Assembly: GCA_947175385.1 (NCBI GenBank)
Contig: CAMWMN010000009.1
Location: 1-43,999, forward strand
Direction: 5' to 3'
From: an uncultured Clostridia bacterium
GTDB taxonomy: Bacteria; Bacillota; Clostridia; Oscillospirales; Ruminococcaceae
DNA length: 43,999 bases
Shown: piece after piece, positions 16,912 through 39,301 of the stretch
Layout of the letters: each line of letters starts with the position of its first letter
Position numbering within the stretch: position 1 is the stretch's first letter
Position numbers and translations under genes: made by a program
Notes under the pieces: generated by a model
Database searches by the model: none
The model's input: the letters and a program-made list of their open reading frames with translations, nothing else
What the model was told of the DNA's origin: nothing

Positions 16912-16977
16912 GCAATTCGCAAAAGTGAACATTTTACGCTCGGCTAGGCGAACGAAGTGAGACGGTTTGCGAATTGC
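16912..16977 (+). promoter_or_regulatory. Structured leader element before the ECF gene
   Basis: GCAATTCGCAAA (16912-16923) and TTTGCGAATTGC (16966-16977) are a perfect 12 bp inverted repeat that encloses 42 nt. AAAGGAG and the ATG of the next gene follow. It belongs to the same family as 36798-36986 and 39190-39301. A short CGGAAT-CAA-ATTCCG hairpin at about 16866-16880 precedes it and may end the coaX RNA. Confidence 0.6.
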
Positions 16978-17014
16978 TCTAAATCAGAACCGAGTGCCAG
17001 CAAAGGAGTTTCTT

Positions 17015-17632
17015 ATGGAGGAAACAAAAAAGACTTCGCGTTGGAACGCGAACAAGACACAGGCGGTCGTTATGCTCGGTCTGCTTACGGCAATCGTGAT
17101 TGTGCTGCAAGCATTTTCGGTCGGCATACAGTTTGGGTATTTTAACGTGACATTCACGCTTATCCCAATCATCGTTGGTGCAGCGCTATACGGCTGGAAA
17201 GCGGGGGCATGGCTTGGCGGCGTGTTCGGCGCGACAGTACTGATTTCCGGTCAGGCTGCGGGATTTATGACGCTTAATCCTGCGGGAACAATTATCACCG
17301 TCCTTCTTAAAGGCATTTTGGCGGGACTTGCCGCAGGACTTGTGTACAAGCTTATCTCGCGAAAGTCCGAATTAGCAGCGGTAATCACAGCAGGAATCGC
17401 AGCTCCCATCGTCAACACAGGAATTTTCCTCTTGGGCTGCGTGGTGTTCTTCTTTAACGCTATGGCAGCAGGAGCCGCCGCCGAAGGATATTCCGGTGTG
17501 TTCTCTTACCTAATTCTTTTTATGGTAGGCGGAAACTTCCCATTTGAGCTTGGTATAAATCTTGTTCTAAGCTCCGCAGCTGTTTACATCATTAAACTCG
17601 GCAAAAAAATGATACGCTCCTCGGCAAAGTAA
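17015..17632 (+). CDS. ECF transporter substrate-binding (S) component, probably pantothenate
   Basis: The 205-residue membrane protein has about six hydrophobic segments and the ECF S-component pattern: TQAVVMLGLLTAIVIVLQAF (TM1), FGYFNVTFTLIPIIVGAALYG, GAWLGGVFGATVLISG and PIVNTGIFLLG. S components bind a vitamin and use shared EcfAAT energising subunits, none of which are here. The position after coaX points to pantothenate (PanT-like), but other vitamins are possible. The ATG at 17015 has AAAGGAG at 17003-17009; a longer frame from 16967 overlaps the leader element. A strong terminator follows. Confidence 0.82.
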   Translation: MEETKKTSRWNANKTQAVVMLGLLTAIVIVLQAFSVGIQFGYFNVTFTLIPIIVGAALYGWKAGAWLGGVFGATVLISGQAAGFMTLNPAGTIITVLLKGILAGLAAGLVYKLISRKSELAAVITAGIAAPIVNTGIFLLGCVVFFFNAMAAGAAAEGYSGVFSYLILFMVGGNFPFELGINLVLSSAAVYIIKLGKKMIRSSAK

Positions 17633-17646
17633 TAACAGAATAAAAC

Positions 17647-17687
17647 AAATCGGCATTTCCGCTTTGGAAATGCCGATTTTTTATTTC
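17647..17687 (+). terminator. Rho-independent terminator of the ECF gene
   Basis: AAATCGGCATTTCC (17647-17660) pairs perfectly with GGAAATGCCGATTT (17666-17679) over GCTTT and is followed by TTTATTT. Confidence 0.92.
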
Positions 17688-17714
17688 GCGTGTACAGTCC
17701 GTAATACTCTTCTT

Positions 17715-17915
17715 TCATAATTTTTCGTATTTCACTATATCCTCAATTTTACAGTCCAATATCCCGCAGAGGTCATCAAGCAACTGAGTGGTAACACCCA
17801 GATTGTGCCGCAAACGGTGGATTGTACTGCTGCTGATGTGGTATTTATTTATCAGGGTGTATGTCGAAATACCCTTTTGTTTCATCGTTTCCCATAACGG
17901 GGTATATACAATCAT
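17715..17915 (-). CDS. XRE/Cro-family small transcription regulator
   Basis: The 66-residue product is one helix-turn-helix domain: KGISTYTLINKYHISSSTIH (about 14-33) followed by RLRHN and the closing LCGILDCKIEDIVKYEK that is typical of short Cro/YozG-type regulators. It starts with AGGTGA 6 bp before the ATG and is divergent from the SLOG gene. A palindrome CGACTA-N8-TAGTCG lies between the two genes over the -35 box of the SLOG promoter, so it probably represses both itself and the partner. AT-rich like the restriction enzyme next door. Confidence 0.85.
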   Translation of the reverse strand: MIVYTPLWETMKQKGISTYTLINKYHISSSTIHRLRHNLGVTTQLLDDLCGILDCKIEDIVKYEKL

Positions 17916-17948
17916 TATTCATCACCTGATTATATTATAAAATATAAT

Positions 17949-17968
17949 CGACTACTTGAAAATAGTCG
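17949..17968. promoter_or_regulatory. Probable operator of the XRE regulator
   Basis: CGACTA (17949-17954) and TAGTCG (17963-17968) form a palindrome around CTTGAAAA, overlapping the -35 box of the + strand promoter. A third half site GACTA lies at 17976-17980. Confidence 0.6.
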
Positions 17969-17984
17969 TATTTTAGACTATAAT
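17956..17984 (+). promoter_or_regulatory. Promoter of the SLOG-like gene
   Basis: TTGAAA (17956-17961) and TATAAT (17979-17984), spacer 17 bp, overlapped by the palindrome. Confidence 0.75.
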
Positions 17985-18005
17985 ATTTATAGGGAGATGA
18001 TAATT

Positions 18006-18458
18006 ATGGATATTTTTACGGTAAGCCTGTTCGGTCACCGGCAAATAACAAAGCCGCTCGATATAGAGGCGGCTCTTGTTAAAGAAGTTAGTTTGCTTAT
18101 CCGCACAAAGGAGTATGTTGAGTTCCTTATCGGGAGAAACGGAGAATTTGACTTGCTTGCGGCGTCATTGATACGGCAAACACAAAAGAAAATTGATTTC
18201 GGCAACAGCGCGTTGGTTCTCGTTTTACCGAGCGCAACAAAGAATACCGCCGACCTTGAGAGGTATTATGATGAGGTTGAAATCTTCGGAGAGGACTGCC
18301 ATTTCAAAGCCGCGCTCCAAGCGCGAAACCGTATAATGGTTGACCGCTCCGACTTGGTGATTTGCTGTATCGAACATCAGAGCGGGGGAGCGTATCAGAC
18401 TGTTAAATACGCGAAAAATCAGCATAAAACGATTATAAACCTCGCGGAGGGAAAATAA
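18006..18458 (+). CDS. SLOG-domain (DUF1273/YpsA-like) protein
   Basis: The 150-residue product shows a Rossmann-like nucleotide-signal (SLOG) pattern: SLFGHRQI near the N-terminus, FLIGRNGEFDLLAA (about 40-53), LVLVLPSA, a central ARNRIMVDRSDLVICCI and SGGAYQTVKYAKNQHK near the end. SLOG proteins bind nucleotide-derived ligands and occur in stress and defence systems. The start at 18006 is 9 bp after GGGAG; an ATG at 17997 is too close. It is divergent from an XRE gene, a pairing I have seen often in Firmicutes accessory DNA. No effector gene is adjacent except the restriction enzyme that faces it. Confidence 0.72.
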   Translation: MDIFTVSLFGHRQITKPLDIEAALVKEVSLLIRTKEYVEFLIGRNGEFDLLAASLIRQTQKKIDFGNSALVLVLPSATKNTADLERYYDEVEIFGEDCHFKAALQARNRIMVDRSDLVICCIEHQSGGAYQTVKYAKNQHKTIINLAEGK

Positions 18459-18459
18459 A

Positions 18460-18485
18460 AATCCCGCTCCAAAAGGGGTGGGATT
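18460..18485 (+). terminator. Terminator after the SLOG gene
   Basis: AATCCCGCTCC (18460-18470) pairs with GGGGTGGGATT (18475-18485), with two G-U pairs, over AAAA. Confidence 0.75.
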
Positions 18486-18496
18486 CACTTTATACT

Positions 18497-18529
18497 CGTG
18501 TTCCCCCTGCCGTACGGCGGGGGAACACG
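18497..18529. terminator. Strong hairpin between convergent genes
   Basis: CGTGTTCCCCC (18497-18507) pairs with GGGGGAACACG (18519-18529); the loop itself holds GCCGTACGGC. Followed on + by ATTATTACAAAATA. Likely ends the restriction enzyme transcript too. Confidence 0.65.
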
Positions 18530-18614
18530 GATTATTACAAAATATATAAGATTATCTCTTCGAGAAAGATACGTCACCTCACACCCTTCCTCTTGCCTTA
18601 TGGATTGCCGGGAG

Positions 18615-20996
18615 CTATATTCTGTCGCTAAACGGTAACGATTTAATGTAGTTTTCCATAAATTTATAATCGGGCTTCCCTTCACTCGTCGCAGGCAGTT
18701 TTATAACGGTACTTGGCAGTGTTTTTTTGTATTTTCTTCCATAAGAATATTTGGGGCGTTCCAGATCCAATACTGTTACTATAAACAGACCGTTGTATTT
18801 GTTAAGGTTTTCGTTGTATCCGGCGCACAATGTGGTGGAGCCGATAAAGTCAGATTCAAGATAATTACAATAACCAACAGAACCTTGACCATCACAAATA
18901 AACACAATAGCATTACCCTTTGAAACTAATGCGTCATCGTGTTTAACTAAGGACATTACCCCGTTTTCGCGTTTTTTAGCACCTATATATGCGATATCAT
19001 CTCCGGCTTCCAGACTGCCCGCATTCTTACATTTGCATGGTTCAAGCTTAAATATTCCATTTTCTCCACCAACGGGAAATTCTACCCAACTGCTGACATT
19101 AAGCGGCATTGATGCTTGCAATTTTCCCGTCGGATCCAGATTAACCTTATTGTACAATATTTCGTATGATAAATATTTTCTTACGGTGTTCATAAAATGC
19201 TGTTTAGAAAGCACAGAATAATCGGTTTTCATATATGCTTCGCAAAGCCATTCCGAAGTACAATCTATGCATCGAGAAGCTGTTTTGCCGTCGATTACCT
19301 TATGATTTCTATATAGTGAAAGCCATTCGGCCTTTATTTTTTTCCAATTATCAAAAACATCAACTCGTCCCAGCTTTTTCTTTTTTACAAAGCCATCATA
19401 TTTATAAAATCCAAAAAAGGTTTCCTGCGTATCATCATGGGGACAATGTGCTCTCCATACCATTACACAGGTGCATGGGCTTGCCGGATAAAATATCTCA
19501 TCGGGCATTGAAAAGACTGCCTTTAAAGTGTGTTTTTTCATTAGGCGTTCTCTTATTGCCTTGAACTTGGTTCCTATTGCGCATGCAGCCGGAACCACCG
19601 CTACGCCTGTACCGCCTACTGCCAATATGTCCAGCAGCTGTTCTACAAATTCCAACTCGGTTTTATCCGTTTGTGAATATGGAGGGTTGATTAAACCAAC
19701 ATTGATATTCTTAGATTTAAGTTCTTTTTTTATTTTTGCATTAAAACAATCACCCTTATAAATATTGGATTTGCCGTCCTTGCGTATAATCATATTGGCG
19801 ATAGCAAGCGTATATAACCCGTCATCAAACTCAATACCGTATAGTCCGTCCCGACGTATACGTTCAATGTCATCCGAATTCGCTTGAGAGAACATTTTGC
19901 TCATAGCTGTAACAAGAAAAGATCCTGAACCACAGCAAATATCCACAACACGGCTGTTCTTGTTAACCTCTGCGAGGTCGCACATAAACTCTGCTAAATG
20001 TTGTGGTGTAAGTACAATTCCAAGTCCGCTTCCATCACCGCCGGAATATTTTATAAATTCGTGGTAAAATACGCCCAACGCATCTATTGTGCTATCCGCA
20101 TAATCCATCATTGGCTTTATTTTCAGTTCAAGCTGTTCGATATACCATGTAATGGATTTTGAATGTCCCAACGGTATTTCCGCAAATTTAGTATTGTCTT
20201 GTAATATTTCAAATACTTGTTTTATGTAATTTATGCGGCTGTTTTTAATTTCATTGGTGTTAAGAACCGTTTCTATTGCGCTACGAATATTTTGCATTAC
20301 AGCCTTATATGAAGGCAGAGAGGAATAGCTTTTGGCAAAGTCGTCATCATTCAATGCAATCAAGATTCCAGCAATAAAAATAGGCTTATGGGCTTCCGTT
20401 ACCTTGATTTCACGAAGGTAATTATGCATATCAATAGCGGTTTCTCTGATTTCATCTAAAGAATACGCCTTTTCGAGTTTATTACCTTTTACAAGCTTTA
20501 TGTAATTTCTGGGTTCAAGAATAATATCACGCGCTTTAAGAAGTTCGTTATATGTTTCTTGACCTTTCATCCAATAGAAAGCGTTAGCTTTCATATTTTC
20601 TTTTTTGGTTCCGCTTATGCCAACAGCTATTACATTATATTCGTTTTTAAGGTGTTTAGCATAATATAATGCGCCGTCGACAGCGTAGTCTTTTGGGTAT
20701 GAGTAATCCGATGAGCTGTGCTTCCTTACATCTTTCTTACATTCCACAACAATAATAGTGGATGTATCATCGTTGAATGTAATTATATACTCAGGTTTTG
20801 CTTTTCCTTTTCCACCCTGTGCGTAATCATCGATAATACAATGCTTTGGCTTTTCACCTGCTTGTTTAAGAAGAACTTCGATTTTATCAATATCTGAAAC
20901 ATCACCTTGCGGAAAGACATATCCAAAATCATTTTGACCGATATGGCATTTCATCTCAATGAGCGTTATGCTCTCGGTATACTGTTCATTAGCCAT
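18615..20996 (-). CDS. Single-chain restriction-modification enzyme (type IIG-like, nuclease + N6-adenine methylase + specificity domain)
   Basis: The 793-residue product combines three parts. An N-terminal PD-(D/E)xK-type nuclease is suggested by KPEYIITF...TIIVVECKK (Pro-Glu 68-69, Glu85-x-Lys87). The methylase part has GIVLTPQHLAEFM (326-338), motif I as DICCGSGSFLV (352-362; the usual form is DPACGSGSF) and motif IV NPPY (437-440), which marks an N6-adenine methylase of the HsdM/BcgI type. The C-terminal region (about 620-785, WVEFPVGGENGIFKL through GRKYKKTLPSTVIKLP) looks like a target recognition domain. No separate hsdR or hsdS is nearby, so it can cut, methylate and recognise DNA alone. 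It is AT-rich compared with flanking ribosomal genes, suggesting acquisition. GGAGG precedes the start. Confidence 0.85.
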   Translation of the reverse strand: MANEQYTESITLIEMKCHIGQNDFGYVFPQGDVSDIDKIEVLLKQAGEKPKHCIIDDYAQGGKGKAKPEYIITFNDDTSTIIVVECKKDVRKHSSSDYSYPKDYAVDGALYYAKHLKNEYNVIAVGISGTKKENMKANAFYWMKGQETYNELLKARDIILEPRNYIKLVKGNKLEKAYSLDEIRETAIDMHNYLREIKVTEAHKPIFIAGILIALNDDDFAKSYSSLPSYKAVMQNIRSAIETVLNTNEIKNSRINYIKQVFEILQDNTKFAEIPLGHSKSITWYIEQLELKIKPMMDYADSTIDALGVFYHEFIKYSGGDGSGLGIVLTPQHLAEFMCDLAEVNKNSRVVDICCGSGSFLVTAMSKMFSQANSDDIERIRRDGLYGIEFDDGLYTLAIANMIIRKDGKSNIYKGDCFNAKIKKELKSKNINVGLINPPYSQTDKTELEFVEQLLDILAVGGTGVAVVPAACAIGTKFKAIRERLMKKHTLKAVFSMPDEIFYPASPCTCVMVWRAHCPHDDTQETFFGFYKYDGFVKKKKLGRVDVFDNWKKIKAEWLSLYRNHKVIDGKTASRCIDCTSEWLCEAYMKTDYSVLSKQHFMNTVRKYLSYEILYNKVNLDPTGKLQASMPLNVSSWVEFPVGGENGIFKLEPCKCKNAGSLEAGDDIAYIGAKKRENGVMSLVKHDDALVSKGNAIVFICDGQGSVGYCNYLESDFIGSTTLCAGYNENLNKYNGLFIVTVLDLERPKYSYGRKYKKTLPSTVIKLPATSEGKPDYKFMENYIKSLPFSDRI

Positions 20997-21075
20997 TGTT
21001 AATATCCTCCATAAAGTGTTTAATACGGATATTGAAATTTTATGTTATTATCCGGCTGAAAAACTTACTAATTAT

Positions 21076-21104
21076 ATTATAGCATATTTGGTAAAAAAGT
21101 TCAA
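21076..21104 (-). promoter_or_regulatory. Promoter of the restriction-modification gene
   Basis: On the minus strand TTGAAC (21099-21104) and TATAAT (21076-21081), spacer 17 bp. Confidence 0.7.
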
Positions 21105-21211
21105 TAGAGTTTTATACGTTATTGTATTTTTTCGGCATTGAGTTACAGGTTGATAACATATACCAAAAAGTATTGATAAATACGTTTAACAGCAAGCTTT
21201 TTGGATTCAGC

Positions 21212-21245
21212 AAGAAAAAATCCCGCTCCAAACGGAACGGGATTT
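21212..21245 (-). terminator. Terminator of rplM-rpsI
   Basis: On the minus strand AAATCCCGTTCC (21245-21234) pairs with GGAGCGGGATTT (21229-21218), one mismatch, followed by a T run. Confidence 0.85.
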
Positions 21246-21265
21246 CGTATATTCGATAACGCAAA

Positions 21266-21664
21266 TTATCTCTTCGAGAACTGCGGAGCACGTCTTGCAG
21301 CCTTCAAGCCGTACTTCTTTCTCTCCTTCATTCTCGGGTCACGAGTGAGGAATCCCGCTTTCTTGAGAACAGGGCGAAGTTCGTCGGAGTACTGGAGCAG
21401 CGCTCTGGACAGACCGTGACGGATCGCGCCCGCCTGACCGGTAACACCGCCGCCCTCAACGGTGCAAACGATGTCGAACTTCTCCATCAAATCGGTAAGC
21501 GCCAGCGGCTGACGAACGATCAGCTTGAGGGTATCAAGACCAAAATAGTCATCGATGTTTCTTCCGTTGATGGTGATAGAGCCGGAACCGGGGTAAACTC
21601 TTACACGAGCGACAGAGTGCTTTCTTCTGCCCGTGCCATAGTAGTAAGGTTTAGATTCGTACAT
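21266..21664 (-). CDS. rpsI: Ribosomal protein uS9
   Basis: uS9 is a 30S head protein whose C-terminal tail reaches tRNA in the P site. The 132-residue product has [40 protein letters not shown] and the basic tail [20 protein letters not shown], all family hallmarks. It follows rplM by 12 bp; the pair is conserved in almost all bacteria. Confidence 0.97.
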
Positions 21665-21676
21665 AAAAAGCCCTCC

Positions 21677-22105
21677 TTAAAACTTGTATTCAACGGGCTT
21701 CTGCGCCGCGTTGTTATGCTCTGCACCCGCATAGCAGCGAAGTCTTGTGAGAGCCTTTCTTCCCAAAGTGCTGTCGGGCAGCATTCCGTTGATTGCGAGA
21801 GTCATCGCTTTCTCGGGGTTTTCGCGCATCAGCTTATCATAGCCTACCTCTTTGAGGTGACCGATCCAGCCGGTGTGCCATCTGTAAACCTTGTTCTGCA
21901 GCTTCTTGCCGGTGAGAACAGCCTTAGAGCAGTTGATGATGATTACGTGATCGCCGCAGTCCACATGAGGAGTGAACGTAGGCTTGTGCTTGCCTCTGAG
22001 CAGGTGAGCCGCCATTGAAGCCACGCGTCCGAGCGGCTTATCGGCAGCGTCAAGGACGTACCATGTGCGCTCAACTTCTGCGGGCTTTGCCATATAAGTT
22101 GACAT
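21677..22105 (-). CDS. rplM: Ribosomal protein uL13
   Basis: uL13 is an early-assembling 50S protein. The 142-residue product starts MSTYMAKPAEVERTWYVLDA and has the family motifs LRGKHKPTFTPHVDCGDHVI, GKKLQNKVYRWHTG and GMLPDSTLGRKAL. CAGGAGG lies 6-7 bp before the ATG. It is the first gene of rplM-rpsI with a consensus promoter; the leader of about 70 nt could hold an L13 autoregulatory element, but I could not confirm one. Confidence 0.97.
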   Translation of the reverse strand: MSTYMAKPAEVERTWYVLDAADKPLGRVASMAAHLLRGKHKPTFTPHVDCGDHVIIINCSKAVLTGKKLQNKVYRWHTGWIGHLKEVGYDKLMRENPEKAMTLAINGMLPDSTLGRKALTRLRCYAGAEHNNAAQKPVEYKF

Positions 22106-22181
22106 ATTTTTATCCTCCTGTTAGTTTTGGAATTTCGCGTTCCGATAAAACGCAAAACATAAATTATTAACAACATTTGTT

Positions 22182-22210
22182 ATTATACCACGATTTTTCC
22201 GATTTGTCAA
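22182..22210 (-). promoter_or_regulatory. Promoter of rplM-rpsI
   Basis: On the minus strand TTGACA (22205-22210) and TATAAT (22182-22187), spacer 17 bp, perfect boxes. Confidence 0.85.
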
Positions 22211-22404
22211 GGGATTTTTTAGCCAAATTTGAAATATACCCCGATTTCTCATCGATTCTCTGTAAATCGCTCTGTTTTTCTCATTTTCTTGAAGTTCATT
22301 TTACTTTTTGTTACAGCGTTATAAAACGGAGAATACGCGAGAAAACTAAAGAAACCGTCATAATAGCGGAAGTATTTTGCGGATTCGGCGGTTTTAGTGC
22401 TATT

Positions 22405-22424
22405 GGAAGTAATAGATTACTTCC
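22405..22424 (+). promoter_or_regulatory. Perfect palindrome upstream of the transglutaminase promoter
   Basis: GGAAGTAAT (22405-22413) and ATTACTTCC (22416-22424) lie 2 bp before the -35 box. A regulator site is possible. The rest of the 22211-22404 gap shows no gene. Confidence 0.4.
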
Positions 22425-22426
22425 TC

Positions 22427-22455
22427 TTGACAAAATCGGTTATCAGATGTATAAT
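22427..22455 (+). promoter_or_regulatory. Promoter of the transglutaminase-like gene
   Basis: TTGACA (22427-22432) and TATAAT (22450-22455), spacer 17 bp. Confidence 0.85.
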
Positions 22456-22496
22456 ATAACAAAGAAAACGATTGACAAGAACTGCGAGGGGGACAT

Positions 22497-23564
22497 ATGA
22501 AAGTCATAATATTTATTGCCGCAGTTTTGGCGGCTTTGATGATAATGTTCGCACACTCTGTGGAATGCTCGGCTTCCGCAACAAGTACATCACTTCCGGA
22601 AAAATATCTTGAGGGAAACGAGCTGGAGCTTTACCGCGAGGTGCTGAAAAATATTATCGCAATAGCCAATGGCAGACAGAACGCGGAACCGTTTTACATA
22701 AGCGTATCCAGACCTTTCGCCAGCACGCGGGAGTATGAAGAGGCTATCGAAAAGGTTATGTTTTTTATCCACAACTACGCTCCCGAATATCTCTATTGGA
22801 GCGACTCAAAAGGATACCTCGTTTATGACACCGTACGCTGCGGAATAGTTTACGGTATTTCTCCCGCGTTTCAAGAGCGCGGCAATCAATACAAAATCAC
22901 CGCGAAAATCCTTAACAACGCGAAAAGCTCATTATCAAACGCAAAAGAAATCGCCGAAAAATATCAGGAAAAAAGCGACTATGAAAAGGTCTGGGGCTAT
23001 GCCGAGGAGATATGCGCTCTCACCGATTACAGTTCTATGGCGGCAAAAGATGATGGCAAATACGCGAAAGAAAACATAGGTCCGTGGAACATTGTGTATG
23101 TTTTCGACCGCGACCATGCAACCAATGTTGTCTGTGGCGGATTTGCCAGAGCTTTTCAGTATCTTTGCAGTCTGGGCGGAGTTGAGTGCCATTATGTTAC
23201 GGGATATGTATCCGATGAGTATCACGCATGGAATATCGTAGTGATTGACGGGGAAAATTACTTTGTTGACCTGACCGTGTGCAGTCAATACTCCGACAGC
23301 GATATATCACGGCACCACCCGTTTGTTATGAACAGTATAAAATCCTCCGATGTGAATTGTTTCATAGCATTTTACTCCCAGTCCGGAATGACACATTCTC
23401 ATTTGTATACATATCACGAAAACGAACTTAAATACCTCCCCGAAAGCTTGCGTATTCTCACCACAAAAGAGTATTCCAAAGAGTCGCCTGCCGATGTTAT
23501 TGCGGTGGCTGTTTCTTTGGCGGCAGGAGTGGCATTTATTCTCGTCAGGACGAAAAAGATATGA
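22497..23564 (+). CDS. Transglutaminase-like exported membrane protein
   Basis: The 355-residue product has an N-terminal hydrophobic signal (1-28), a transglutaminase/cysteine protease core, and a C-terminal membrane helix (about 333-352) followed by RTKKI, so it is probably anchored outside the cell. The catalytic triad is visible: Cys213 in VVCGGFARAFQYLC, His243 in EYHAWNIVVI and Asp258 in YFVDLTV. Bacterial relatives act as peptidases or peptide cross-linkers on the surface; the substrate is unknown. GAGGGGG lies before the ATG. It is a single-gene transcript that ends at a hairpin. Confidence 0.85.
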   Translation: MKVIIFIAAVLAALMIMFAHSVECSASATSTSLPEKYLEGNELELYREVLKNIIAIANGRQNAEPFYISVSRPFASTREYEEAIEKVMFFIHNYAPEYLYWSDSKGYLVYDTVRCGIVYGISPAFQERGNQYKITAKILNNAKSSLSNAKEIAEKYQEKSDYEKVWGYAEEICALTDYSSMAAKDDGKYAKENIGPWNIVYVFDRDHATNVVCGGFARAFQYLCSLGGVECHYVTGYVSDEYHAWNIVVIDGENYFVDLTVCSQYSDSDISRHHPFVMNSIKSSDVNCFIAFYSQSGMTHSHLYTYHENELKYLPESLRILTTKEYSKESPADVIAVAVSLAAGVAFILVRTKKI

Positions 23565-23604
23565 TATTGATGCCATTCGGAGTTCCCGGAAAATGAATAA
23601 ACAT

Positions 23605-23632
23605 AACCCCCGGTTTTTCAATCGGGGGGTTT
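23605..23632. terminator. Terminator hairpin between convergent genes
   Basis: AACCCCCG (23605-23612) pairs with CGGGGGGTT (23623-23631) with one bulge; the + strand follows with TTAC only. Confidence 0.6.
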
Positions 23633-23647
23633 ACTGCGCATGTTTCA

Positions 23648-24049: not shown

Positions 24050-24063
24050 ATCTTACCCTCTCG

Positions 24064-24864: not shown

Positions 24865-24869
24865 TTTTT

Positions 24870-31119: not shown

Positions 31120-31167
31120 CGTTTTAATTTCCCCTTTCCTTGGATAAAAACATAATTATACTCTTAT

Positions 31168-31196
31168 ATTATACACCTTTTTTCGCCGAATTTCAA
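31168..31196 (-). promoter_or_regulatory. Promoter of glgP
   Basis: On the minus strand TTGAAA (31191-31196) and TATAAT (31168-31173), spacer 17 bp. Confidence 0.75.
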
Positions 31197-31263
31197 GACG
31201 TATTTAGCATATATATTGAAACACGACAAATTCAACAGCTCTATTTTGGTGATTTTGCCGAAA

Positions 31264-32470: not shown

Positions 32471-32519
32471 AACTTCCCCCACTTTGACCTCCAAAATGTA
32501 GATTTCCACATACACCTTT

Positions 32520-32548
32520 ATTATACTACACTTTGCCGGAAAAGTCAA
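32520..32548 (-). promoter_or_regulatory. Promoter of the glycosyltransferase
   Basis: On the minus strand TTGACT (32543-32548) and TATAAT (32520-32525), spacer 17 bp. Confidence 0.75.
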
Positions 32549-32641
32549 TAGTCGGGATTTACATAACAAAATTCTCCTTGTAAGTTTGTCAATGATATTG
32601 AACAAACGTACACATTACACAAAATCCGCTTATTTGGCACT

Positions 32642-33961
32642 CTACTGCCCGTAATCAATTTGCTCCACTTTGTATTTATCTGGCAAGACCGTTATCAATG
32701 TACCGCCGCGCTGTTCGGTGAGATTTGATATTCCCGCATATGCTATGTAATCAATGGATTTTGAATATATCAAATCAACGCCCTTATATTTTATTCCCAT
32801 ATTGTTCAAATGGTCATGCCCCACGAACACCGCTTCGGTGCTGTTTTTGCTTAAAATCACGTCAAAAAAGCCGCTGTTGTGGTCGGGACAGGAGGTTTTT
32901 TCTCCGTTTTTCCCGAAAAGATACTCTGCCTCGGTACTTCTCGCGTCCAACGCCGCCTTTGCGTCCGCGAATTCCCGAAACGGTATATGCATAAAAACAA
33001 ACGATTTTACCCGCTCGCCATGCTCCTCCGAAACCGCGTCAATTGTGTCGGAATACCATTCTATTTGGTCTTTATGTATGGAATCATAATCGTTTACTGT
33101 AATAGAATCCCGTGCATAGTCGTTTGTGTCCATTAAAAAGACGATACGGTTCAGACTTCCATCGGGATTTTCAAGTCTCAGATACTGATTATATCTTCCG
33201 TAAACCACGGGCTGATGCTCCGCATAGAGCATGGGGCAATTATTGTCCGCCATAAAATGTCTGAAAATACCCTCAAACGATCTCTCATCGTATGTCGCTA
33301 TTGCTTCGGTATCGTGATTGCCATAAACCATTGCCCACGGAATTCCGATGTTGTTCATAAAAGTGCAGAACTGATAAATCGGGTTTAAATTGTTTTTGCT
33401 GAACGTCTTTGTAGGGGACGTATACACCACATCTCCCGTTACTATTATCAAATCGGGGCGGGCGGACTTTATTGTTTCATAGCATGCTTTCAGCGCTTTT
33501 CGATCTAATCCTATAGTCGTTATGCTTGAGCAAATGTGAATGTCCGTAAGCTGAAGGATTCTCAATTCATCGCTCTCGGCGCGGATAGTATAAACGCCGT
33601 TCTCGTGGTTATATGTTACGGTGCTGTTATGGTCGAACACGGAATAATCAAGCGAGTTGATATAACTTTCATTATATTGTACACCATTCTGAATGATTGT
33701 ATTAAAAATGTATACGGTCGCGGCAACCGACAAGAGATTCGCTGTTAACCTCATCCAAAAAAGCACCCGCTCGTTCTTCATTCTTATCATCGGAAGTCCT
33801 ATGATAAGCCGAACCGCGAAATTAAACGCCGCTAAAAGCGGGATAGGATAAAATACAGAAAACGACTGCCAAATTATGCTTAACGCCACATATACGGATA
33901 AAATCAACGCCCAATACACCGTCCATTTTATAATCGTTTTCTTTTTATTTGCGATTTTCAT
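32642..33961 (-). CDS. Membrane-anchored calcineurin-like metallophosphoesterase
   Basis: The 439-residue product has three hydrophobic N-terminal segments (about 12-32, 38-57, 70-90), then a metallophosphoesterase domain with all five blocks: QLTDIHI (D140, H142), TGDVVY (G176-D177), YGNHDTE (214-217), FMHIPFREF and GHDHLNN. The enzyme domain follows the helices and probably lies outside the membrane. Relatives hydrolyse phosphodiesters of lipids, nucleotides or teichoic acids; the substrate is unknown. The ATG at 33961 is preceded by AGGGGG, so an upstream ATG is rejected. Own promoter at 34002-34030. Confidence 0.85.
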   Translation of the reverse strand: MKIANKKKTIIKWTVYWALILSVYVALSIIWQSFSVFYPIPLLAAFNFAVRLIIGLPMIRMKNERVLFWMRLTANLLSVAATVYIFNTIIQNGVQYNESYINSLDYSVFDHNSTVTYNHENGVYTIRAESDELRILQLTDIHICSSITTIGLDRKALKACYETIKSARPDLIIVTGDVVYTSPTKTFSKNNLNPIYQFCTFMNNIGIPWAMVYGNHDTEAIATYDERSFEGIFRHFMADNNCPMLYAEHQPVVYGRYNQYLRLENPDGSLNRIVFLMDTNDYARDSITVNDYDSIHKDQIEWYSDTIDAVSEEHGERVKSFVFMHIPFREFADAKAALDARSTEAEYLFGKNGEKTSCPDHNSGFFDVILSKNSTEAVFVGHDHLNNMGIKYKGVDLIYSKSIDYIAYAGISNLTEQRGGTLITVLPDKYKVEQIDYGQ

Positions 33962-34001
33962 ATTTGTCCCCCTGTTCAAAAATATTGTCGAACTCTTGTA
34001 T

Positions 34002-34030
34002 ATTTTATCACAAACCGTGAAAAATGTCAA
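34002..34030 (-). promoter_or_regulatory. Promoter of the metallophosphoesterase
   Basis: On the minus strand TTGACA (34025-34030) and TAAAAT (34002-34007), spacer 17 bp. Confidence 0.75.
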
Positions 34031-34146
34031 GGAACGCCGCAAAGTCGCCGCGCAGCCCAATGTTGTGCTACAATAGATATTGGACAAACAAGCAAAAAAT
34101 ATTGAGAGATAGAAAAAAATCTGGTAAAATGAAAGTTACCACACCA

Positions 34147-34178
34147 AATCCCCCGCCGAGAAATTACAGCGGGGGATT
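34147..34178 (-). terminator. Terminator of secDF
   Basis: AATCCCCCGC (34147-34156) pairs perfectly with GCGGGGGATT (34169-34178); same stem family as 3506-3530. The T-tract on the minus strand is weak. Confidence 0.65.
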
Positions 34179-34183
34179 GTCTG

Positions 34184-36556
34184 TTATGCTTTTGCGGGCT
34201 TGGCGGATTTTGCCGCTTTCTTGCTGCTCTTGCGCTCCTGCCACCAGATCCACAGCGGACCTGCAAGGCAGAGGGAGGAGTAGAATCCGACAATCATACC
34301 GATTGCAAGCGGAATCGCAAACGAGAGAATCGAGGTAACACCCATCATCGTGCACACAACCGCTATCGAAATCATTGCGGTAACGGTGGTCGCGGTGGTG
34401 ATGATAGAACGCGAGAGCGTCTGATTAATGGAAAGATTAACAAGCTCTCTGTCGGACTGCTTGCCGCCGAGTTTAGCGCGGTTCTCACGCAAGCGGTCAT
34501 AAATGATAATTGTGTTGTTGATCGAGTAGCCCAACAACGTCAGGATAACCGCCATAAAGTTGGAATCCAACGACATTCCGCAGAATACATACACCGCGTA
34601 GGTAAGGATCACATCGTGTAGCAGACAGCATATCGCGATGATACCCGCGCTCCAGCCGCCGATTTTCTTGAATCTGAACGCAATATAGATTACCAACAGC
34701 ACAAATGCCGCCGCAACCGCGATAACGCACGAAATCAAGAACTGCGAACCCGCCGAGGCGGAAACGTTGGTGGTGTCCATATTTTCAATTTTGTTGTCGG
34801 GATATGCCTTTTCAAGCTCATTTGATACATTTAACAGCATATCCTCGTCCATCTTCTCATCAGCCGCAAAGGATATCACGATCGTTTTCAGACTTCCTGT
34901 AAAGCTCGTTCCCGTGGTAACGGTCGCGCGGGGAGTTCCGAGAGCCTCCACCGTGGACTTGATGTCATTGGTGTTTACCTCGCCCTCATACGAGTAGGTG
35001 ATGATCGTTCCGCCCTTGAAACGGATATCCACATTCACGCCCAGCACGAACGAGAAAATCACCGTCAGCGCGATTGCCGCCGCGGAAATGATAACGAAAA
35101 TCTTCCGCTTTCCAACGAAATCAACATTGGTTTTCGCCTTTACATCGATGGTGTGAACAGTGCCCTTGCCCGTTTCAACATCTGCGGGAAGGTCTTTCTT
35201 GGATACCCCGAAGAACGAGGGCTTTCTGAAACACTTGAACTTGGAGAGCGAAACCGTCATCAGACGCGTTGCCCAGCAAGCCATAATGAAGTTCATAATT
35301 ACGCCCGCCAACAGCGTGTAACCGAACGAGTAAACCGTACCCTCGGTAGACGCGCCGAACCATGTTCCGAACACAGCCATCAAGATAAGAGCCACGATGA
35401 TTACCGTGAGGTTAGAGTCGAGAATCGCCGTAAATCCGCGCGCGAAGCCGTTCTTAACCGCGCCGTCAATGGTGCGTCCCGATTTCAGCTCCTCTTTAAT
35501 TCTCTCTGCTGAGATTACGTTTGCGTCTACACCCATACCGATAGAGAGGATAATACCCGCGATACCCGGCAGCGTCAGCGAGGACGCGTTGTTAAATCCA
35601 AAGAATCCCGTGATCGCCGCGAACATACCTGCGACTTGTCCGGTAAGCGCGATAACCGCCACAAATCCCGGCAGACGGTAGTAAACGATCATAAAAATCG
35701 CGATAAGACCAAACGCGATGAGTCCCGCGAGAGCCATTGCGTCACGCGCGCCGATACCCAAAATAGGGGAGATGGTGGAAAGGCTCTTCTGTTCGAGCTT
35801 GAACGGCAGAGCGCCTCCGTTTATCTTGTCCGCAAGAGCTCTTGCCTCTTCAACGGTAAAGCTGCCCGAAATCTGGCACGAGCCGTCCGTAATCGCGGTG
35901 CTTACATTCGGATAGCTTATGCACACATCGTCCATCCAGATAGAAATGGGCTGACCGACAAGGCGCGTTGTCGCCTCGGCGAAAGCGTCTTTTCCCGACT
36001 CCTTGAACTCAAGACTTACGATATATTGACCTTCCTGTTGGTCATACTTAGCCTCAGCCTTTTCGACATCGGCGCCGGTAAGGATAATCTTGTCCTTGGT
36101 TTCGTCGACCGGCAAACCGTTTTCGTCAACTTTGTGAAGCTCGCGAAACGTCAGCAGCGCGGTTTCGCCGATCTCCTTGACCGCCTGCTCGGGGTCAAAC
36201 GACGCGTCGCCGCTCTGCCACGGGAACTGCACGATTATCGCGTTTGTCGCGCTGTCAACATACACCTCGTAGTCGTTGATATTTTTATTGACCAGACGCG
36301 TTTCGATTATCGACTTTGCCGCGTTAAGGTCGTTTTCGGTAATGTTGTGCTCTGCTGCATAGTCTGCGGGCACGCCGAACGTAACGTTTACGCCGCCGCG
36401 AATATCTATTCCCCATCTGATGTCGTCTATTCCCCAGATATACGATGTCTTGATGTCGCCCTTATAGCTAGCCACGCCCATTGTGGACAGCAGCGTGAAT
36501 ATTATAATAAGGAAAAAGACAACGAAGAAGACGGGTTTTCTGATTTTGCTCTTCAA
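34184..36556 (-). CDS. secDF: Protein translocase SecDF (fused)
   Basis: SecDF uses proton flow to pull secreted proteins across the membrane. The 790-residue product is a SecD-SecF fusion with 12 membrane helices. SecD features are GIDIRGGVNVTFG, the large extracytoplasmic domain (about 60-260) and GMGVDANVISAERIKEE; SecF features are VDIRFKGGTIITY and GYSINNTIIIYDRLREN. The start appears to be TTG at 36556, with CGGAGTG about 8 bp upstream. Consensus promoter at 36625-36653; the C-terminus is Lys/Ala-rich. Confidence 0.95.
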   Translation of the reverse strand: MKSKIRKPVFFVVFFLIIIFTLLSTMGVASYKGDIKTSYIWGIDDIRWGIDIRGGVNVTFGVPADYAAEHNITENDLNAAKSIIETRLVNKNINDYEVYVDSATNAIIVQFPWQSGDASFDPEQAVKEIGETALLTFRELHKVDENGLPVDETKDKIILTGADVEKAEAKYDQQEGQYIVSLEFKESGKDAFAEATTRLVGQPISIWMDDVCISYPNVSTAITDGSCQISGSFTVEEARALADKINGGALPFKLEQKSLSTISPILGIGARDAMALAGLIAFGLIAIFMIVYYRLPGFVAVIALTGQVAGMFAAITGFFGFNNASSLTLPGIAGIILSIGMGVDANVISAERIKEELKSGRTIDGAVKNGFARGFTAILDSNLTVIIVALILMAVFGTWFGASTEGTVYSFGYTLLAGVIMNFIMACWATRLMTVSLSKFKCFRKPSFFGVSKKDLPADVETGKGTVHTIDVKAKTNVDFVGKRKIFVIISAAAIALTVIFSFVLGVNVDIRFKGGTIITYSYEGEVNTNDIKSTVEALGTPRATVTTGTSFTGSLKTIVISFAADEKMDEDMLLNVSNELEKAYPDNKIENMDTTNVSASAGSQFLISCVIAVAAAFVLLVIYIAFRFKKIGGWSAGIIAICCLLHDVILTYAVYVFCGMSLDSNFMAVILTLLGYSINNTIIIYDRLRENRAKLGGKQSDRELVNLSINQTLSRSIITTATTVTAMISIAVVCTMMGVTSILSFAIPLAIGMIVGFYSSLCLAGPLWIWWQERKSSKKAAKSAKPAKA

Positions 36557-36624
36557 ATGTATTCACTCCGTTTCCGATTTTTAGAATCCTCAGCCTGTAA
36601 CCTTTTACAGCCTGTTATCTTTCT

Positions 36625-36653
36625 ATTATACTACAAAAAACAGGATTAGTCAA
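36625..36653 (-). promoter_or_regulatory. Promoter of secDF
   Basis: On the minus strand TTGACT (36648-36653) and TATAAT (36625-36630), spacer 17 bp. Confidence 0.75.
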
Positions 36654-36694
36654 GTATTATTTGGTGAAAATTAAGGAATATTTTACAAGGGTAC

Positions 36695-36723
36695 TTGAAA
36701 ACGCAAGTAATATGTGGTATAAT
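36695..36723 (+). promoter_or_regulatory. Promoter of the DUF2339 gene
   Basis: TTGAAA (36695-36700) and TATAAT (36718-36723), spacer 17 bp. The leader is about 285 nt. Confidence 0.75.
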
Positions 36724-36797
36724 TATAGTGAAAATGTATGGCAGAACCCAAAGTCGCACTTTTGAGTGAAAGCTCGGACAACAGTCAGGGGAGCAGT

Positions 36798-36986
36798 GCA
36801 AATTCAAAACGCGCCTGTCGCCCCAAAAGGCGGCTTCCTTGCCGCCTTTTGGGGCGACCAAATGACCGCAAGCGGTCACACTCGCAAACATCCTGTTTGC
36901 GAGTGGCACGGTTCACGCGCAAAGTGAACCGGGTTGCTCAGCGAACATAGGTGAGCGTAAGCTTGTCTGTGTGGTTTTGAATTTGC
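36798..36986 (+). promoter_or_regulatory. Structured leader element, five hairpins inside a 13 bp closing stem
   Basis: GCAAATTCAAAAC (36798-36810) pairs perfectly with GTTTTGAATTTGC (36974-36986). Inside lie: an 18 bp hairpin (36817-36834 with 36841-36858), GACCGC/GCGGTC (36864-36877), an 11 bp hairpin (36879-36889 with 36895-36905), an 8 bp hairpin (36909-36916 with 36924-36931) and GCTCA/TGAGC (36936-36956). TATTTAAGATTAAGGAG follows, with the ribosome site. Other copies are at 16912-16977 and 39190-39301. Confidence 0.7.
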
Positions 36987-37013
36987 TATTTAAGATTAAG
37001 GAGCTATTATATT

Positions 37014-39017
37014 ATGAACTATCCCAACAACCCCAACAATCAAAACAATGTTTCCGGAAAGGAGCTTTTTGTAGGGCTGAACGTATTGTCGAAAATCGGC
37101 GTGATTTTCCTTATTCTGGGAGTTATCGCGTTTTCGGCGGCTTCCAAGGGCTATATTCCCGAATGGGTGCGGCTGACACTGGTGTTCGCAGTGGGCGTGA
37201 TCATGCTAGTCGTCGGGGAGCTGTTTTACCGCAAGGGAAGTTCCAAAATCTTTTCGTTGGCGTTGATTTATGGGGGTATGGCGGAGCTGTTTATAAGTTC
37301 GCTTATCGGATATTACGGGTTCCCGGTTTTCGGAGAGTTTGCCGTTTTGGGAACATTCCTTGGTGCGTCAATTGTTGGATTTGCACTCTCCGAAAGGTAT
37401 AGATCCCAGTTTCTGTCAGTACTTACGGTTATCGCCTCGATCATTCCTTTCTTTATGTTTTATGTGAAACACGGATTTGTGTACTTCTTCGCGGCGGCGA
37501 TTATTATGGGCGTACATTGCGCAAACGCCGTGATCGCGCGGAAAAAGCGTTACAACGTTTCGTTCGTCACGGGAATTATTTTGCTGATCACACAGGTTCC
37601 GATGCTTTGCGACTTGCTCAAACAAAATCTCAATTTCAATGAAAGGGAGCTGTGGACGATTCAGCTCTTTCCGGTGATTTTTGCGGCATTCGGAGCGTTT
37701 ATCTACACCGCCGGGGCGATTCTGAACGCGATTCAGAACGGCGGAAAAGCAAGCGAGTTGGATCTGACCGGCGCGGCGATAACCCAAGTGGTTGCGATGA
37801 TGTATTCGTGGAATTACATCGGCGGAATCGCCGACGGAATCGTTATGTTCGTGTTGGCGATATTTTACGCTCTGGCGGCGGCTTGCTTTATACTTAGGTT
37901 CGGCGGCAAGATGGAACTTCGCGCAGCCGCAGCTAAGTCGGCGGCAAGGGGTAAGAATAACTTTGCCAATCTGCTGCTGAATCTGGCCCTTATTGCGGCT
38001 GTTTCAGGAATATTCCTTTCAATGCGTGCGGGATATATTCGGTACATCGCGCTGCATTTGTTCGCGGCGGCAATATTCACAATGGGAGCGTTTTTTGAAA
38101 GCAAGCTGCCGCGCGTTTGGGGAGTCGCGCTGTTGGTGCTGTCGGAGGTAATGTTTCGGTCGCTGTACGCGCGGTATGAGGGCATAGGAATGAAGCTGTT
38201 CATAACGATCGTGAATATCGTTATATGGCTTGCTATTCTGATTCCGTTTGTCGCACGCAAAAAGCACAATGCAACGCTGTTCCGTATATATACCGCGCTG
38301 GCGGTGTTTAACGCGGGATTTCTCGGCGCGAGTGTAATTGTCACGAATGTTGTTCCGGCTCTGGAGGTTTTTTCCATATGGGAGGACAAGGCGGGGCAGG
38401 CGGCATTTGCGGCGATGTGCGCCGCCGTGCTGTGGATGTTGGTTGGATTTATTTTCGGTAAGCTGAAATATATGAAAACTGCGGGAATCGTTCTCTCGAT
38501 TATCAGCTATGTAATCGGACTGCTTTACCTGATGGGTTCGTCAATCGCGGGCGCGGCAAGCCGTAATTACGGGAACTCTGCAGGACTTGTGATGATTATT
38601 GTGACGATTATAATAAACGCTGTTTCGGTACTCGCGGTGTTGGATATTACGCTGCAAATACGCGAACGCGCGCCGAGGTTCGCCAAAGCGGTTGGGCTTG
38701 TCGTTTCGGGATACGCGCTGATTGTGCTTACATCGGTGCTTGGCACAAACGATTTCGTCAAGTTTACCAGCTTTATAATAAGTATAATCTACATTGTCAC
38801 GGCGGCACTGTGGATCGTTATCGGATTCAAGCGCAAAAACACCATTCTGCGCAGGTTCGGGCTGGCATTGGCGCTGCTTTCCTCCACAAAGCTGTTTTTG
38901 TTCGATTTCAGAGGAATTAACCCTATGGGCAAGACGCTCTTGTTTATCGGTTTCGCACTGACGCTGCTGGGAATTTCGTACGGTTACGGTATCGCCGAAA
39001 AATCCTTGAAAAAGTAG
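37014..39017 (+). CDS. DUF2339 polytopic membrane protein
   Basis: The 667-residue product has an Asn/Pro-rich N-terminus (NYPNNPNNQNN) and then about 18-20 hydrophobic helices to the end. ELFVGLNVLSKIGVIFLILG near the start, and a run of short cytoplasmic RKK loops, match the DUF2339 family, large membrane proteins of unknown function found in Clostridia and Bacteroidetes. No soluble domain or known catalytic motif. AAGGAG (36998-37003) precedes the ATG by 10 bp. Expressed from its own promoter through the structured leader. Confidence 0.8.
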   Translation: MNYPNNPNNQNNVSGKELFVGLNVLSKIGVIFLILGVIAFSAASKGYIPEWVRLTLVFAVGVIMLVVGELFYRKGSSKIFSLALIYGGMAELFISSLIGYYGFPVFGEFAVLGTFLGASIVGFALSERYRSQFLSVLTVIASIIPFFMFYVKHGFVYFFAAAIIMGVHCANAVIARKKRYNVSFVTGIILLITQVPMLCDLLKQNLNFNERELWTIQLFPVIFAAFGAFIYTAGAILNAIQNGGKASELDLTGAAITQVVAMMYSWNYIGGIADGIVMFVLAIFYALAAACFILRFGGKMELRAAAAKSAARGKNNFANLLLNLALIAAVSGIFLSMRAGYIRYIALHLFAAAIFTMGAFFESKLPRVWGVALLVLSEVMFRSLYARYEGIGMKLFITIVNIVIWLAILIPFVARKKHNATLFRIYTALAVFNAGFLGASVIVTNVVPALEVFSIWEDKAGQAAFAAMCAAVLWMLVGFIFGKLKYMKTAGIVLSIISYVIGLLYLMGSSIAGAASRNYGNSAGLVMIIVTIIINAVSVLAVLDITLQIRERAPRFAKAVGLVVSGYALIVLTSVLGTNDFVKFTSFIISIIYIVTAALWIVIGFKRKNTILRRFGLALALLSSTKLFLFDFRGINPMGKTLLFIGFALTLLGISYGYGIAEKSLKK

Positions 39018-39046
39018 TTGACAACAAAGGGAAAAAGTGCTACAAT
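39018..39046 (+). promoter_or_regulatory. Promoter of the ilvE operon
   Basis: TTGACA (39018-39023) and TACAAT (39041-39046), spacer 17 bp, giving a leader of about 270 nt. Confidence 0.75.
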
Positions 39047-39189
39047 AAAAGTTGTTAGAGAGTAGTAGTTATTTGGGTTATAACACTAATCCGCTGTTCG
39101 GGGTGAAGTTATGGTGCATTATCCCACATCAACCTATCGGAGTGAAATCTTAGCGCGGTATAACTCAAAACAACAAACCCGCAACTAGT

Positions 39190-39301
39190 GCAAATCCGAA
39201 ATACGAGTGAGGCACAACACCACAAAGTGGTGTTGTGGCTCGCTCGGCAAGCGCAGATGAAATCCGCAAAGCGGATTTCATCTGCGCGGTTTCGGATTTG
39301 C
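39190..39301 (+). promoter_or_regulatory. Structured leader element before ilvE
   Basis: GCAAATCCGAAA (39190-39201) pairs perfectly with TTTCGGATTTGC (39290-39301). Inside are ACAACACCAC-AAA-GTGGTGTTGT (39214-39236), extended by CGAGTGAG (39204-39211) with CTCGCTCG (39239-39246), and a perfect 17 bp hairpin with AAA loop (39251-39267 with 39271-39287). TATTAAAAATAAGGAG and the ilvE start follow. The first part of the leader (39053-39189) shows no T-box or other family I know. Confidence 0.7.

Follow-up and report, generated by a model that had tools for sequence, protein, structure and literature searches.

A high-copy family of structured gene leaders, candidate RNA modules of 5' UTRs, in a gut Ruminococcus-like bacterium

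Analysis of a 43,999-nucleotide window (the whole stretch of DNA studied, on contig CAMWMN010000009.1) and of the 2.47 Mb genome to which it belongs, that of a gut Ruminococcus-like bacterium, revealed at least 150 covariance-model matches to one structured leader. Judging from sequence and predicted structure, we lean towards the view that these leaders are a single amplified interspersed repeat family living as a self-folding 5'-UTR module, and, as a type of gene leader, they appear both new and unusually abundant. Each element is a closing stem (P1) around two hairpins (P2 and P3), forming a three-way junction of ~100-115 nt that ends ~10 nt before a Shine-Dalgarno (SD) sequence; together with an upstream U module it spans ~150 nt.

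Nearly all copies lie in the sense orientation directly before a gene start. Among the 150 matches listed, 125 lead straight into an SD and start by one rule (116 by a stricter rule), and most of the remaining copies open a tandem pair, lead into an ATG without an SD (seven copies) or meet a contig end; 12 of the 150 are followed by another copy. In 104 of the 125, P1 ends 20-24 nt from the start, and in 129 of 147 leaders it ends 10-11 nt from AGGAG (the 147 used of 205 copies from the source genome and the sister species G018). The original prediction, drawn from three leaders in the window, held that this was not a single-operon feature, and the at least 150 places indeed precede genes of many kinds, including those for pyruvate kinase, IMP dehydrogenase and CTP synthase; the covariance-model search for further copies that it had proposed returned these as well as matches in related genomes. 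One copy adjoins a tRNA-Ser gene, the 5' end of which reads GGAGAGG, and double tails occur (L014; guaB of G018), as though a new copy had landed within an old one.

The closing stems of the three leaders, predicted to start with GCAA and end with TTGC, are present exactly as claimed (the prediction gave stems and coordinates in differing order):

36798-36810/36974-36986, + strand: closing stem of the 36.8 kb copy, GCAAATTCAAAAC
39190-39201/39290-39301, + strand: closing stem of the 39.2 kb copy, GCAAATCCGAAA
16912-16923/16966-16977, + strand: closing stem of the 16.9 kb copy, GCAATTCGCAAA

A scan of the window for GCAA arms of at least 10 bp gave one further pair on the + strand, at 12770 (10 bp). 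RNA folding exceeds chance at 36.8 kb (z -10.3) and 39.2 kb (z -15.6) but not at 16.9 kb (z -0.3). Model R1 was built from 18 copies, the 39.2 kb one and 17 from other parts of the genome, and its search covered 100 loci, with overlapping or edge loci (e.g., L118, L121, L124, L125) left out. It matches 36795-37005 at 55 bits and 39187-39319 at 113 bits, the latter copy being itself among the model's 18, and AAGGAG, already noted to follow the stem, starts 11 nt (36.8 kb) and 10 nt (39.2 kb) past it. The 16.9 kb copy has 37 nt between stem and ATG, gives no R1 match at E<=0.01, and scores 18.5 bits with filters off on 201 bases. Since its closing stem and junction CGCTCGGCTAGGCGAACG are common to a copy in another species (L057, genome G014), it is read as a probable diverged, shortened member; the grouping of the three leaders into one family is upheld for the 36.8 and 39.2 kb copies and weak for this one.

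16912..16977, + strand: diverged short copy, P1 intact, junction CTCGGCTAG retained, P2 and P3 short, subtype as L057 (z -0.3, 18.5 bits)

Comparison of the DUF2339 and ilvE loci with those of relatives suggests that the element was added within existing 5' UTRs. The features of these loci are as follows:

36695..36723, + strand: DUF2339 promoter (TTGAAA, 17 nt, TATAAT), upstream of the element, read from the sequence
36798..36986, + strand: long-form element at DUF2339, P1 36798-36810/36974-36986, P3 36945-36972 (predicted fold)
36998..37003, + strand: SD AAGGAG of the DUF2339 gene, ATG at 37014, common to the empty site
37014..39017, + strand: DUF2339 membrane protein gene, 667 aa (PF10101, E 1.9e-24)
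39018..39046, + strand: ilvE promoter (TTGACA, 17 nt, TACAAT), same arrangement in 6 of 9 outgroup leaders compared
39075..39189, + strand: upstream U module, three tandem ~40 nt units (GTTATAACNNNAA.CAACCTATCGG...), split by eye
39190..39301, + strand: element at ilvE, P1 39190-39201/39290-39301, P2 39204-39246, P3 39251-39287 (predicted fold)
39312..39317, + strand: SD AAGGAG of ilvE, ATG at 39324
39324..40388, + strand: ilvE, branched-chain aminotransferase-like gene (PF01063, E 1.4e-35), relatives in Ruminococcus

In the long form at DUF2339, several additional hairpins (36817-36931, predicted fold) stand in place of the P2 side or are an expansion of it. The sister species G018 has an empty site at this gene, with a nearly identical promoter (TATACT), the same SD (AAGGAGCTAT) and no element. 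As this SD is common to the empty site, the element stands before a pre-existing SD, and with two genomes compared, gain here and loss in the sister both fit. In the ilvE outgroups the promoter and SD are present and the element is absent; by this comparison, the element was gained at ilvE relative to the outgroups. The main alternative on offer had been a mobile palindromic element bringing a ribosome site with it: the family does behave as an amplified repeat, but the SD at DUF2339 is not of its making, being shared with the empty site.

The closing stem had been said to vary on both arms together, and covariation is strong: 42 of 45 pairs are altered on both sides, and 95.5% of positions pair, versus 77.8% in shuffled and 30-43% in slid controls, on 150 rows with a few antisense matches among them. 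The covariation spans the fold, base of P2 included, and the compensatory changes go beyond shuffled controls, as in a covarying structured RNA. Because of the antisense matches, G-U and A-C pairs were counted in the first 140 copies of the source genome, giving 256 versus 77; the 36 copies from ten other genomes (out of 54 rows, being 73 less 19 antisense or partial ones) gave 57 versus 12, an excess to which strand-biased C-to-T mutation may contribute in part and in which the copies are related by descent. The gene strand folds more stably than its complement in 134 of the 143 source-genome copies used (of 150) and in 23 of 23 copies from seven other genomes, with a weaker bias in G006, G023 and G013 (9 versus 4). 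Two-sided changes, G-U excess and better gene-strand folding together show, at the level of sequence comparison, that the fold is maintained as RNA.

R1 matches 13 of the 43 genus genomes, and the copies fall into species-specific sequence "dialects". At least 86 copies are present in G018, of which 55 were read, and for 35 of 48 testable ones the source-genome orthologue also carries a copy. Across these 35 genes, identity is 93% in the ORF, 82% in the tail, 68% in U and 73% in the element (P2 and P3 from 30 of the 35 pairs), the last to be set against 69% for random family pairs. Such a comparison shows helix sequences to be redrawn at fixed sites, while fold and position persist. In G006, G023 and G013, 1 of 11 best-scoring copies is followed directly by an SD and start, and 9 of 32 other-genome copies (best-scoring matches rather than a random draw) precede an opposite-strand gene by a crude ORF count, six of the nine in G006 and G023. 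This placement, together with the opposite-strand copies, argues that the leader role is not general. Arrays and antisense copies were also seen in G006 and G023.

The U consensus, taken from 133 of 150 U regions with tandem or short ones left out (tandem units were recognised by nhmmer), is coding-like, with a synonymous share of 0.485 versus 0.304 expected and the other two frames below expectation. A translated leader peptide was nevertheless rejected, as 112 of 129 copies lack an in-frame SD and start (129 of 142 copies scanned, 13 tandem ones skipped) and 63, 52 and 48 of the differences between the sister species are at codon positions 3, 1 and 2, respectively (20 of 35 pairs); the U module is not a working uORF at present. 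Sequestration of the SD by U, through pairing of CCTATC with GATAAGG, was likewise rejected for want of U-tail covariation: among 520 column pairs in the source genome and G018, the largest z, 4.6, falls at non-complementary columns. Computed over 118 leaders, SD openness is 0.54 for native sequences versus 0.46 with the element shuffled (p 0.0017). With the element deleted it is 0.53 (p 0.73 versus native), which equals the native value, so that no improvement on a bare leader is evident.

We propose that the repeat multiplied within 5' UTRs, between promoter and SD, in one Ruminococcus-like genus. The element would be transcribed with its gene and would fold at once into closing stem, two hairpins and an unpaired A-rich tail, acting as a self-contained 5'-UTR module that leaves the SD about as open as in a short leader and cuts off upstream sequence. 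Probable roles are an influence on mRNA lifetime or recognition by a shared RNA-binding factor. Copies may overwrite each other by recombination or gene conversion, with selection retaining only those that still fold in the transcript.

We consider it rather unlikely that the family is a MITE-like DNA repeat, wholly parasitic and of no use to the host. The placement would then reflect an enzyme that prefers A-rich DNA beside AGGAG, or the loss of insertions elsewhere, and the patchy presence, the tandem copies, the arrays and antisense copies of G006 and G023, the copy at tRNA-Ser with its GGAGAGG and the double tails all fit such a history. Of the marks expected of a transposase-mobilised element, sites lacking it are present, and no clear flanking duplication was visible by eye in the one pair aligned end to end, at DUF2339. 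The parasitic account accords poorly, however, with the near-total sense orientation and fixed spacing in the source genome and with the G-U excess on the gene strand. No transposase or other mobilising enzyme was seen (Y1 alone was looked for). Moreover, passages of PMC3049150 describe the BOX, RUP and SPRITE repeats of Streptococcus pneumoniae, read there as parasitic, as over-represented between convergent genes instead.

At the opposite extreme would be a global cis-regulatory RNA, its junction recognised by a single trans-acting protein or small molecule that controls how more than 150 mRNAs are translated or degraded; this seems to us improbable. Covariation throughout the fold, the position 10 nt before the SD and the retention of the element at the same genes in the sister speak for it; against it, few unpaired nucleotides that might make up a ligand pocket are invariant by eye, the downstream genes are of many kinds, no U-tail covariation points to an SD-sequestering alternative fold, and no terminator-like U run is visible by eye past the hairpins. 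Most improbable of all is a DNA cruciform kept perfect by palindrome correction in replication, with covariation as its by-product. Long near-perfect arms and the joint change of entire helices at orthologous sites are in its favour, but it should erase the G.A, G.G and G.U sites that are retained, by eye, in P2 of several subtypes, and symmetric correction of palindromes would not by itself account for the large surplus of G-U over A-C on the gene strand.

The leaders had been thought unlike any known riboswitch; in the comparison with Rfam, no family reaches threshold on the element and the window has no match at the gathering cut-off. On the element, permissive scans yielded matches below threshold only, among them Clostridiales-1 (RF01699) at about half its cut-off; T-box matches in L290 and L283 fall outside the element. 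Clostridiales-1, reported as probably RNA and not cis-regulatory (Weinberg et al. 2010, PMC2864571), is a weak lead as a relative. It too has a closing stem with branched hairpins, and it matches part of P2/P3 in copies of G053, two of them in tandem (best 26.8 bits); G014 has a weak match (23.1 bits). Scores in the genus of 23-27 bits nevertheless compare with a cut-off of 48, which no genome reached among 43 of the genus or 197 of the order (best 39.2 bits, in G133, of another family), and its model has three hairpins in the junction whereas our consensus has two inside P1.

Among repeats, those of Neisseria known as REP2/CREN are located immediately before genes, at the ribosome-binding site, and bring promoter and RBS, whereas the present family shares both promoter and SD with the DUF2339 empty site. 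Like the pneumococcal repeats, it is short, structured and of high copy number per genome, and BOX is described in the same passages as modular, transcribable within 5' UTRs and able to lengthen (PMC3049150); it differs from what is described there in its sense orientation ~10 nt before an SD and in helices that covary and are redrawn at orthologous sites, a comparison by behaviour, from descriptions, rather than by boxA/boxB/boxC alignment. Correia (CREE), ERIC and BIME/REP elements, which are mentioned in PMC3049150, are likewise palindromic repeats, interspersed and carried into transcripts, and the present family is set apart from them by its covarying three-way junction, its fixed place before the SD and the lack of a RAYT in G000 and G018. 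Mobilisation of the REP/RAYT kind was rejected, since RAYT/Y1_Tnp (PF01797) is absent from G000 and G018; PF01797 occurs in 9 of 43 genus genomes, two of which (G006, G051) are among the 13 with R1 matches. One exact-pattern scan with one dialect gave no match in viral contigs, and no description of the family was found in the open-licence papers searched.

A structured leader is usually confined to one pathway and a few genes per genome; the present fold occurs at the head of at least 150 sites. It is possible, if doubtful, that the family is a genome-wide 5'-UTR cassette of a new class, a mobile RNA that settles beside AGGAG before starts, persists as RNA in front of more than 150 genes and trades helices from site to site, so that what is passed on is fold and address, with the sequence redrawn. 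A sizeable share of mRNAs would then carry one common, swappable 5' end structure, perhaps with a single reader factor. The redrawing of helix sequence within one species pair, with fold and position kept, offers a natural experiment on 5' UTR requirements, and the family would allow tests of how interspersed repeats turn into gene parts and of recombination plus RNA-level selection as the driver of covariation in multi-copy repeats.

An additional, wrecked copy, absent from the list of the original prediction, lies at ~1787-1855 in the window:

1787..1879, + strand: U module, truncated element (3' part only) and tail, ATG at 1880

A full copy stands before what is apparently the same gene in G018 (C13:57569).

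The closing stems beginning GCAA and ending TTGC that the original prediction had placed in three leaders of the window are all present as described.

36798-36986: copy at 36.8 kb, leader of the DUF2339 gene
39190-39301: copy at 39.2 kb, leader of ilvE
16912-16977: diverged copy at 16.9 kb

The first two fold far better than their shuffles (z of -10.3 and -15.6, respectively), while the 16.9 kb copy does no better than shuffled sequence (z -0.3). A blast search of the own genome (G000) with the 36.8 kb copy returned 70 matched pieces, the query itself counted; the 20 loci read from it display one recurrent design: a U module of ~40 nt (GTTATAACCCAAAGCAACCTATCGGCGACTAGT), a closing stem P1 of 12-13 bp, two hairpins (P2, which has a bulged A close to its base, and P3), the second P1 arm, and finally the tail [CT]ATTWARAT, followed by AAGGAG and the start codon. 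Several copies hold within P2 a hairpin of a different, second family (its core reading GCGGC.TCCTTGCCGC or nearly so), as if hairpins insert into hairpins and leave the fold unbroken.

L003, 1388-1557: locus with second hairpin family in P2
L005: the same
L020: the same
L294, 19667-19854: the same
Window, 36817-36858: the same

A covariance model, R1, was built from an alignment of 18 copies with 45 consensus pairs; it finds at least 150 matches in the own genome, the 150 scored ones all at E 0.0064 or better, and these 150 were taken into the placement analysis. Directly after the element, 125 run into a Shine-Dalgarno (SD) sequence, a start codon and an ORF of at least 40 aa, with a P1-to-start-codon distance of 20-24 nt in 104 of these. 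A stricter rule retains 116, the remainder being 12 with a further copy behind them, 3 that reach the end of their contig, 1 before tRNA-Ser(tga), 13 flagged as having a start without an SD, and 5 others; by eye, some of the 13 flags are ordinary SD starts misread through an early GTG or TTG. In seven of the 13, likewise judged by eye, the ATG directly follows [CT]ATTAAAAT or a near variant, with no SD visible; their positions in G000 are listed here.

C50:13227, contig and position of SD-less copy; this gene shows the same arrangement in the sister species
C106:4387, SD-less copy
C106:5264, SD-less copy
C87:2243, SD-less copy
C93:5772, SD-less copy
C2:41506, SD-less copy
C27:347, SD-less copy

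At L128 (126-214, minus strand), a copy adjoins tRNA-Ser(tga), and this gene opens with GGAGAGG where the SD would be. None of the 150 copies lies inside a long open frame on its own strand, and two lie inside one on the opposite strand. The downstream products are of many kinds: among 30 examined with Pfam (29 drawn at random from 117, plus the DUF2339 product) were pyruvate kinase, CTP synthase, adenylosuccinate synthetase, ScpB, RnfC, BioY, cyclophilin, class IV aminotransferase, DUF2339 and others, while seven gave no family at E<=1e-5; IMP dehydrogenase, rpoB and further names were assigned by reading the sequences.

Double-sided changes occur in 27 of the 45 consensus pairs in the 18-copy alignment, which was not fitted to the structure; in the 150-match alignment, which was, 95.5% of cells pair (77.8% when shuffled), both sides have changed in 42 of 45 pairs, and pairing falls to 30-43% once the partner is shifted by 1-3 columns, all of these being counts over copies related by descent. 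By eye, a C, T or A as the first base of the P2 stem goes with an opposite G, A or T. A perfect DNA palindrome is expected to be symmetrical between strands. G-U cells outnumber A-C cells by 256 to 77 in 140 rows of own copies and by 57 to 12 in 36 copies from ten other genomes, again among related copies, and strand-biased C-to-T mutation could contribute to this excess. Fold stability favours the gene strand in 134 of 143 own copies and in all 23 from seven other genomes, but in only 9 of 13 from G006, G023 and G013.

Comparison with the sister species G018 (at least 86 R1 matches) found an orthologue bearing a copy for 35 of 48 testable copies; for the remaining 13 the own orthologue is not among the R1 matches, one of them (window 1787) being a wreck. 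In these 35 pairs, identity is 93% over the first 150 nt of the ORF, 82% in the tail (71% for random pairs) and 68% in U (57%), while the whole element reaches 73% against 69% (p 0.09). By helix, orthologous and random pairs stand at 87 and 84% for P1 (p 0.085), 71 and 69% for P2 (p 0.44), and 70 and 60% for P3 (p 0.013); P3 thus retains some memory at orthologous sites. In 5 of 30 pairs the two copies resemble each other in every helix. Single helices can change on their own: the pair C17:61329/C130:5725 has P1 and P3 in common and a different P2, and C9:42958/C8:33000 shares P3, with a compensated pair, and differs in P1 and P2. The pattern would look no different had separate copies landed independently at these sites; the common U and tail favour inheritance in part of the pairs.

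Of 30 loci each of pyk, purA and guaB from the genus, those with an R1 match at the start of the gene are all three in G000 and pyk and guaB in G018; the other 85 have none, though other dialects (species-specific sequence versions) could be missed there. The purA gene of G018 lacks an R1 copy, yet keeps the tail TTTGCTATCAAAATCAGGAGG. At DUF2339, G018 presents an empty site, with TTGAAA-17-TATACT and AAAGGAGCTAT around a short leader; the window has ~230 nt extra between the same promoter and SD, and with two genomes gain and loss are both compatible. Of nine ilvE outgroup leaders, six carry TTGACA-17-TA[AC]AAT and an SD around a short leader and three a different promoter, likewise without the element; at L327 a copy of another dialect sits between a promoter of the TTGACA kind and the SD. 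Because promoter and SD occur without the element at DUF2339 of G018 and in the ilvE outgroups, the element was added inside pre-existing 5' UTRs, and at DUF2339, at least, the SD is not supplied by it. Double tails stand behind a single element at L014 (589-712, minus strand), in the G018 guaB leader (L232) and at C139:1479, which would fit the insertion of a new copy into the 3' end of an older one. A different palindromic repeat of ~170 bp (GGCAACACCGC...GTGGTGTTGCC) is present in G018 (L294, ~7370-7540), and the window lacks it at the corresponding site; pyk in G056 has a similar sequence upstream.

How the element might work was considered by folding 118 leaders: SD openness is 0.54 in native form, 0.46 with the element shuffled and 0.53 with it deleted, and in these models the element behaves as a long insert leaving the SD undisturbed. 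U-tail pairing shows no covariation, and, of 141 contexts, 49 have a promoter-like site upstream of P1 (21 after shuffling), at varying distances. We therefore favour an amplified repeat that the genome tolerates, and may also use, as a 5'-UTR module complete in itself; its copies would be preserved by RNA-level selection and overwritten through exchange with one another. A dedicated reader protein is possible, and no mobilising enzyme was identified, Y1 being the only kind sought. The U module, found upstream of P1 in ~130 own copies (e.g., window 39157-39189), changes chiefly at the third codon positions of one frame, RYN[PS]KQ[PLV][IT]GD*, with a synonymous share of 0.485 against 0.304 expected; a usable start is absent from this coding-like frame in 112 of 129 copies.

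No Rfam family exceeds its threshold on the element. Clostridiales-1 (RF01699) scores 23-27 bits against G053 and G014 (cut-off 48) and nowhere passes the cut-off in 197 genomes of the order (best 39.2 bits, in G133, from another family); these scores hint at distant kinship and fall short of membership. The search listings of one library held no description of this family. Nearest in behaviour are the BOX, RUP and SPRITE repeats which, unlike the element, favour convergent gene ends (PMC3049150).

In a first set of 41 genomes, R1 matches eight, all belonging to the window's own genus, which contributes 25 (own genome counted), and none of the 16 from other genera; within the genus it matches 13 of 43. 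Counts at E<=0.001 are 58 in G023, 59 in G049, 31 in G006, 20 in G048, 11 in G021, and 7 each in G053 and G041. Stem sequences come in species-specific versions (for example, GAAATTTCAAAA in G006 and G023, GCAAAATACGC in G041, GCAAAAGTCGC in G021), whereas the architecture is unchanged and the tail similar. Of 32 such copies from other genomes, 17 are followed within 10 nt by an SD and ORF; in G006, G023 and G013 this holds for only 1 of 11. A crude ORF count places 20 of the 32 before a same-strand gene, 9 before an opposite-strand gene and 3 before none, although two of the nine (L268, L288) do have an own-strand SD and ORF within 10 nt. Among 80 named ilvE loci, R1 matches only L294 (G018), L327 and L298. 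Finally, a T-box leader lies close to an element copy in G021 (L290, 1744-1961, minus strand; 98.5 bits, over the cut-off of 93), and a second T-box leader, at 91.2 bits just under that cut-off, does so in G053 (L283, 900-1122, plus strand).
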